From SAR202 cluster bacterium bin87 (lineage in GTDB: Bacteria > Chloroflexota > Dehalococcoidia > Lucifugimonadales > UBA3495): DNA of 64,000 nt. Under the pieces are notes generated by a model. It ran no database searches. It was not told the origin of the DNA and saw nothing but the letters and a program-made list of their open reading frames with translations. How positions within the stretch are numbered: position 1 is the first letter of the stretch; the number at the start of each line of letters is the position of its first letter. The translations under genes and the position numbers were made by a program. The stretch is taken from contig MPNC01000002.1 in the NCBI GenBank assembly GCA_002238825.1, forward strand, positions 425,180 through 489,179, written 5' to 3'. Positions 7,132-37,853 of this stretch are shown here, one piece after another.

Positions 7132-7252
7132 TGTCGGTTCGCTCCTGTATGGTCGCAGTCGCCTAAGCCAATGCGGCTATCAGGCAATGGACGTTGCGGT
7201 GAATTATAGCCGCTTTGGTTTCATCCGTCAGGACGCTGCTCAGCCCGCCCAT

Positions 7253-7417
7253 GGCCTTTCCAAAGTCATTGCGAGAAGCCATCACCCCTGTAATTGCGAG
7301 GAGCGAAAGCGACGTGGCAATCCCGTCGATGCAATAATGCTTTCCCGTATGAGTCATGCTCCCGAAGCGAGATTGCCGCGCCGCGCTCGCAATGACAAAA
7401 GCTGCTTTGGAAAGGCC
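7253..7417. repeat. long-hairpin dispersed repeat (GTCATTGCGAG family), copy 1
   Basis: Inner arms GTCATTGCGAG (7265-7275) and CTCGCAATGAC (7386-7396) are perfect complements, and the outer arms GGCCTTTCCAAAG (7253-7265) and CTTTGGAAAGGCC (7405-7417) pair again. It fills much of the 383-base gap between the divergent genes at 7131 and 7515; the rest of the gap shows nothing I can name. Confidence 0.8.
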
Positions 7418-7514
7418 CTGCAGCCCGGCGATTGGGACATCAAAACCAACGCCTGTTATTATATTTTCGCCACTGCGACTGCACTGGCAATTCGCCACTC
7501 CGGACCTTGTTTGC

Positions 7515-14202: not shown

Positions 14203-14232
14203 TTGACCTTCAGCGAACGGCCGTTCTATAAT
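14203..14232 (+). promoter_or_regulatory. sigma70-type promoter of the HTH gene
   Basis: TTGACC (14203-14208), 18-base spacer, consensus TATAAT (14227-14232). The expected start is near 14239, giving a 30-base leader before ATG 14269. Confidence 0.75.
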
Positions 14233-14268
14233 GCTGATCTGTTTAGAACGTACGTTTCGAGGTGGATT

Positions 14269-14610
14269 ATGTTCGCCATGAACGCCGTAGCACCCAAGCA
14301 GCGACAAATCGCCGAACCAAGAATCGATCACTACGAGGATACCGGTTGTGAGGTCTCCGCCACATGCTTCGACTGCCCGCTACCCCGCTGCAAGTTCGAC
14401 GACATGGAATGGTTCTACAAATACCGTCGCCTGGGGCGGTATCTGCACATGGCCTCTGTGATCCATAGCGAAGGCCTCTCCATCCCCGAAGCGGCAGAGC
14501 GATTCTCCGTTACCCAGCGTACCGTGTTTCGGGTCTTGAAGCGCTGCCGAGAGGCCATGCGGGAACTGACGCCAGTGGAAGCCGCCGTGTTCGCCAGCCT
14601 GGCAGCATAG
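14269..14610 (+). CDS. small helix-turn-helix protein with N-terminal cysteine cluster
   Basis: 113 residues. The N-terminal half carries four cysteines in GCEVSATCFDCPLPRC (spacing C-x5-C-x2-C-x4-C), a likely zinc or iron-sulphur site. The C-terminal half is a HTH: IHSEGLSIPEAAERFSVTQ then RTVFRVLKRCREAMRE. GAGGTGG precedes ATG 14269 and a strong promoter lies just upstream. It is followed after 26 bases by a gene for a small membrane protein, now interrupted. The arrangement suggests a transcriptional regulator, perhaps redox- or metal-responsive, controlling its own operon. That is inference. Confidence 0.75.
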   Translation: MFAMNAVAPKQRQIAEPRIDHYEDTGCEVSATCFDCPLPRCKFDDMEWFYKYRRLGRYLHMASVIHSEGLSIPEAAERFSVTQRTVFRVLKRCREAMRELTPVEAAVFASLAA

Positions 14611-14636: not shown

Positions 14637-15196
14637 ATGCCCGACGACAGGCCAAACACCGCGCTGTGGCGGTTCTTTGACGGCGCGGCGTCAATCAGCG
14701 CCAGTATGTTGCTATCGATCGCTGTCAACGCCTGCGCCTTCTGCAACAAGGGTCTGTGCAAAGTAATGGGCTTCTTTGGTTTCCGCTCATCCTGAGCCTG
14801 TCGAAGGATGCTGCCGTTGCCGGAGCGTGGTTCGACAAGCTCACCATGAGCGGGAGGACGGGCTTTGCACAGACCCTGTTCTGCAACGGTCTGCCCGTGC
14901 TGGGCTATCTCAAGGACCTGACCAACCGGGATGATGGGATTATAATGACGGCAACGCTGTTGCTGTTCCCCACCACCGCCGCGCTCTATAGAGTTTTCAA
15001 AATGTTTTTTGCAGCCAAAGAAGCCGCCGAACGCAAAGCCCGGGAGCGCAGGCGCCAGGCCCGGGAGCGCGGTCTCCAAGAAGGTATCAAATCAGGTCAA
15101 CGGACCGAGCGTGAGCGCATCAGCGCGGCGCTCGAACAACACGGCGTGCAACTCTCCCCGGAACTCGTCAGTATCCTTGCCGGCGAGGACGAATAG
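14637..15196 (+). pseudogene. 139-residue membrane/coiled-coil protein interrupted by a miniature element
   Basis: Codons 1-37 (ATG 14637 to the AAC at 14745-14747) encode MPDDRPNTALWRFF ... NACAFCN. The frame is then broken by a 131-base element flanked by the 9-bp duplication TTCTGCAAC. If the element and one duplication copy (140 bases) are removed, codon 37 joins GGT at 14888 in frame and the protein continues GLPVLGYLKDLTN ... to the stop at 15194-15196: 139 residues. The restored protein has a hydrophobic segment (TATLLLFPTTAALYRVF), then a charged helix (AAKEAAERKARERRRQ) that looks coiled-coil. A shorter product could still start at ATG 14945 (83 residues). Function unknown; it follows the HTH gene. 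Confidence 0.75.
14748..14878 (+). mobile_element. ~131-bp miniature inverted-repeat element, copy A
   Basis: Termini AGGGTCTGTGCAAAG and CTTTGCACAGACCCT are perfect complements. It is flanked by identical 9-bp copies TTCTGCAAC at 14739-14747 and 14879-14887. It has no coding capacity, so movement would need a transposase from elsewhere. Other copies are at 19626-19757 and 37722-37853. Confidence 0.85.
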
Positions 15197-15202
15197 CGCC
15201 GT

Positions 15203-16378
<1,176 letters not shown>

Positions 16379-19625: not shown

Positions 19626-19757
19626 CAGGGCCTGTGCAAAGTAATGGGCTTCTTTGGTTTCCGCTCATCTTGAGCCTGTCGAAGGATGCTGCCGTTGCCG
19701 GAGTCGTGGTTCGACAAGCTCACCATGAGCGGGAGGACGGACTTTACACAGGCCCTG
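19626..19757 (+). mobile_element. ~131-bp miniature inverted-repeat element, copy B
   Basis: Termini CAGGGCCTGTGCAAAG and CTTTACACAGGCCCTG differ by one base. Flanks ACCCACCAGA (19616-19625) and ACCCAGCAGA (19758-19767) match at 9 of 10 positions, consistent with an aged target duplication. It lies between the two MFS genes; the remaining gap holds nothing else visible. Confidence 0.8.
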
Positions 19758-37721: not shown

Positions 37722-37853
37722 CAGGGCCTGTGCAAAGTCCCTCCTCCCACTCATGGTGAGCTTGTCGAACCACGACTCCGGCAACGGCGGCATCCTTCGA
37801 CGGGCTCAGGATGAGCGGAAACTAAAGAAGTCGATTACTTTGCACCGGCCCTG
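37722..37853 (-). mobile_element. ~131-bp miniature inverted-repeat element, copy C
   Basis: Inverted relative to copies A and B. Termini start CAGGGCCTGTGCAAAG and end CCGGCCCTG. Flanks GGCGAAGCGG (37712-37721) and GTCGAAGCGG (37854-37863) match at 9 of 10 bases. It fills much of the 385-base gap before the quinone reductase gene; nothing else is recognised there. Confidence 0.8.

Follow-up and report, generated by a model that had tools for sequence, protein, structure and literature searches.

Gene order and the interrupted reading frame

The window, a stretch of 64,000 nucleotides from the genome of SAR202 cluster bacterium bin87 (G000), contains a pair of genes in which an HTH gene precedes a gene for a small membrane protein. 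The pair is followed by a convergent gene for an acyl-CoA dehydrogenase, which served as a marker of the locus (Table 1). The membrane-protein gene is split by a miniature element (MITE) whose inverted ends match almost perfectly; positions 14749-14763 and 14863-14877 form a perfect 15-bp inverted pair.

Table 1. Features of the interrupted locus, in coordinates of the window.
Feature	Position	Strand	Basis
Promoter-like TTGAC ... TATAAT before the HTH gene; spacer holds GAACggccGTTC (14215-14226)	14203-14232	+	Kept in 6 of 6 orthologous loci
HTH gene, 113 aa, first of the gene pair, conserved neighbour	14269-14610	+	Weak matches to HTH_23 and sigma-70 region 4
Disrupted membrane-protein gene before the insertion (codons 1-37), with the first predicted membrane helix	14637-14747	+	Reading and homologues
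Left copy of the 9-bp target duplication, TTCTGCAAC	14739-14747	+	Direct reading, flank comparison
MITE, 131 bp, ends AAGGGTCTGTGCAAAGT / GCTTTGCACAGACCCTG; family consensus ends CAGGGCCTGTGCAAAGT	14748-14878	+	Window sequence read directly
Right copy of the 9-bp target duplication, TTCTGCAAC	14879-14887	+	Direct reading, flank comparison
Disrupted membrane-protein gene after the insertion (codons 38-139 and stop codon), with the second membrane helix and the charged, helical tail	14888-15196	+	Reading, homologues; helices from a low-confidence homologue model
Acyl-CoA dehydrogenase, convergent syntenic downstream neighbour	15203-16378	-

When 140 bases are taken out and position 14747 is joined to 14888, an open frame of 420 nt (139 aa plus stop) returns, which has its stop codon at 15194-15196. 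This agrees with the coordinates and the frame arithmetic of an earlier sequence-only reading of this DNA. In the present sequence of the window, the 3' half of the gene lies in a different frame from the 5' half. The 5' frame ends within the element at 14795 and leaves an ORF of 52 aa, and the interrupted gene can encode only its first 37 residues followed by 15 from the element. Because the element itself supplies an in-frame stop (a TGA in the frame of the membrane-protein gene), the gene is broken regardless of the frame shift. A copy of the 132-bp consensus length inserted in the same phase would likewise have stopped it.

The native product is predicted to have two membrane-type helices and a long, charged helical tail, based on its sequence and on a low-confidence structure model of a homologue (pLDDT 68). 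No family in Pfam or PHROGs was found for it, and a match to HemY_N remained below the cut-off. With translation predicted to terminate in the element at the end of codon 52, the product would lack both the second membrane helix and the tail of the native protein, and the disrupted gene has probably lost its function. In the annotation, its remnants should be labelled a pseudogene.

Uninterrupted genes in related genomes

The joined, reconstructed protein was used as a query against 99 related genomes. Full-length matches were found within the genus, and the uninterrupted gene is located at the same locus in six congeneric genomes (G010/L033, G012/L034, G003/L035, G013/L036, G005/L040, and G006/L049). 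The relatives are uncultured Dehalococcoidia/Chloroflexota. At all six orthologous loci, the gene is placed after the same HTH gene (66-94% identity in tblastn) and before the same acyl-CoA dehydrogenase gene (92-97% identity in five loci; in the sixth, 91% across 297 residues). RuvX is found upstream in five of them, and the upstream stretch examined for L040 gave no RuvX match. The DNA alignment of the six loci is continuous across the insertion junction, and the relatives thus provide empty sites for the element. The sequence-only reading had proposed an exact disruption of a small membrane-protein gene and had named an uninterrupted homologue across the junction as its proof. Boundaries, 9-bp duplication, and intact orthologues agree with this proposal, and the six genomes carry the predicted N-terminal 37 codons. 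Homologues that begin at Met 14945, which the same reading had named as grounds for rejecting its proposal, are not represented among the orthologues.

The gene arrangement might alternatively be explained by a 3' part that is a natural, separate gene starting at Met 14945 or GTG 14756, in which case nothing would be disrupted. GTG 14756, which lies in the element, does open an uninterrupted frame of 146 aa that extends into the 3' half, and a private change from ATA to ATG at codon 57 creates the ATG at 14945. However, all of the more than 20 aligned full-length homologues include the N-terminal part, in frame with the rest. Six of them are located at the same locus, and none of these six orthologues has an ATG at codon 57. 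Hence, a separate gene is barely credible. Nor is the insertion a product of chance, given that about 20 copies of the element are present in the genome, eleven of them with exact or one-mismatch 9-bp flanking repeats, and that six orthologous loci are uninterrupted. We assign a probability of roughly nine in ten to the reading that a non-autonomous, 131-bp MITE of the ISAs1 type jumped into the conserved membrane-protein gene after codon 37 and duplicated 9 bp of its target.

The MITE family and its putative parent

About 20 near-full-length copies of the element are present in the genome in addition to fragments, and G008 and G003 are rich in related copies. The family consensus has a length of 132 bp. 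The window copy represents a 131-bp form with a one-base deletion that it has in common with L002. Exact 9-bp repeats flank five copies (L001, L002, L003, L008, and L016), and repeats with one mismatch flank six (L009, L013, L015, L020, L023, and L025). Short, non-coding, and multi-copy, with terminal inverted repeats, a target duplication of fixed length, and no transposase, the element resembles the bacterial MITEs derived from insertion sequences, which likewise reach dozens of copies. Unlike these, its core contains dispersed short palindromic repeats (TCATCCTGAGC..GAAGGATG, GGTTCGACAAGCTCACCATGAGC), which also stand alone in relatives. No paper was found in a literature search for the core repeats, entered as text. 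The Rickettsia palindromic elements offer a second comparison because the element described here also has a strong hairpin. Consensus and duplication together amount to 141 bp, which is divisible by three, and two of the frames are free of stops, so that some insertions could be in-frame. In contrast to the Rickettsia elements, the 131-bp copy in the window reads a stop in the frame of the gene and truncates the protein.

The window contains additional miniature elements, whose ends are of the same or the sister type, at 7250-7420, 19626-19757, and 37722-37853. Other MITE copies were considered as gene disruptors and rejected: the luciferase-like, SMP-30, and DUF503 domains next to them are each confined to one side of the junction, and these insertions therefore look intergenic. 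One other copy is found near a PaREP1-like gene, towards the end of that gene.

ISAs1-family insertion sequences (transpos_ISAs1; Pfam DDE_Tnp_1_assoc) duplicate 8-10 bp of their target, and the 9-bp duplication of the MITE falls within this range. Transposases with the ISAs1-associated domain are encoded in 11 of the 14 genomes of the genus, and the complete ISAs1 elements of the genus exhibit CAGGG- or CAGGA-type ends and exact duplications of 9-10 bp. One subgroup of elements, about 1.2 kb long in the relatives, includes L163/L175 in G005, L164/L174 in G012, and L176 in G035, which belongs to another genus of the same family. Their ends (CAGGGCCTTTTCAAAGT or CAGGGCCTTTCCAAAGT) show two mismatches to the MITE consensus and hence match at 15 of 17 positions, with one additional change in the left end of L163; the flanks of L164 and L176 agree at 8 of 9 positions. 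The subgroup transposase scores 74.9 bits against NCBIfam transpos_ISAs1 (cut-off 70). The MITE shares with the ISAs1 insertion sequences the CAGGG start, the 15 of 17 end positions, and the length of the duplication, and differs from them in that its 131 bp encode no transposase. Moreover, G000 contains another family of miniature elements, whose ends (CAGGGCCTTTCCAAAGT) are identical to the ends of the ISAs1 element of G035.

Among the ends examined in the genus, no full-length autonomous element with exact CAGGGCCTGTGCAAAGT ends was found. The solitary ends examined in relatives were miniature elements or unpaired, with no autonomous partner, and a search of the PF01609 transposases of this genome for MITE ends found none. 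An intact ISAs1 transposase was not found in G000, where the ISAs1 matches are short and fragmentary or carry stops. Thus, the ISAs1 assignment rests on the ends and the length of the duplication. As both match ISAs1, the most suitable label for the element is ISAs1-type MITE with a putative partner, and mobilisation of the element in trans by an ISAs1-family transposase is suggested by the type of inverted repeat and the 9-10 bp duplication. It is unlikely that a transposase of another family mobilised the element and that the resemblance of the ends is due to convergence. Such an origin would fit the 2 of 17 end positions that differ from the nearest ISAs1 element and the missing exact autonomous parent, but the CAGGG-type ends, the 9-bp duplication, and the sister family with the ends of the G035 element agree on ISAs1. 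The disruption had also been described as reversible. This description is not supported, as the empty sites of the relatives never contained the element, no excision was observed, and the genome yielded no intact ISAs1 transposase.

In the relatives, ISAs1 transposase genes of several subgroups (L174, L175, L176, L167, and L172) consist of two overlapping frames that switch at A-rich sites, e.g., AAAAAA(A). Programmed frameshifting, slippage, or decay are possible explanations.

Age of the insertion and regulation of the gene pair

Relative-rate arithmetic on the distances among G000, L034, and L033 gives dN of ~0.052 and dS of ~0.25 for the G000 branch. The resulting dN/dS of ~0.21 is no higher than the ratios of the intact relatives (0.31 for L034 and 0.23 for L033), and the disrupted gene exhibits no sign of long relaxation. 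The window copy of the element differs from the family consensus by 4 substitutions. Matching changes in the two ends (GGGTCT/AGACCC) account for two of them, which may thus have been present in the donor already. Two to four private changes in 131 bases correspond to 0.015-0.03 per site, compared with a synonymous divergence of 0.25. As a rough estimate, which assumes that the element evolves at the synonymous rate, this suggests an insertion in roughly the last tenth of the species' branch. The branch ratio and the few substitutions support the recent insertion that had been proposed before. The accompanying statement that both halves are undamaged is nearly right; however, I57M and G72R, the latter at a nearly invariant glycine, are private to this genome.

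The 3' half might still be made as a functional protein with a replaced N-terminus, starting from the element or from the new ATG. The frame that starts at GTG 14756 continues without interruption across the element and the 3' half, and the dN/dS of the branch is not raised. Yet a low ratio carries little weight if the insertion is young. Furthermore, such a protein would lack the first membrane helix together with the conserved WRFFDG start, and G72R places a charge in the second helix, so that we regard this possibility as very improbable.

With a young MITE insertion as the preferred reading, the locus is a clean but ordinary case of an event type that is already known, and the understanding of how such elements work is unchanged. 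The recent disruption, in an uncultured lineage of the Chloroflexota, is well documented, with empty sites at orthologous loci and a plausible family of parent transposases, and the MITE family gains a parent assignment (ISAs1-type).

The operon promoter (14203-14260) contains a GAACN4GTTC box in the TTGAC/TATAAT spacer and a second box, GAACN4GTTT, downstream. Both boxes are conserved in all six orthologous loci, with variable middle bases. In this genome and several relatives, lexA is preceded by GAACATTAGTTTG-like sites, and the recA promoters have only GAACNNNNGTGC-like sites, which are weaker than those before lexA. The conserved LexA-like box suggests that the operon of the HTH and membrane-protein genes might be under LexA (SOS) control. 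Binding of the HTH protein to its own promoter would explain the conservation of the boxes equally well. That the 3' half is expressed as a re-started, membrane-anchored protein (from GTG 14756 or ATG 14945) in an operon that is possibly induced by DNA damage is very improbable, and an altered regulatory circuit through loss of the gene is speculation. The GAACN4 boxes are missing upstream of nearly all paralogous loci. In the genus, the membrane-protein family is multi-copy, sometimes in tandem (e.g., G006:C1:3046833-3047757), and has a variable, repeat-rich tail with GRQEG repeats.
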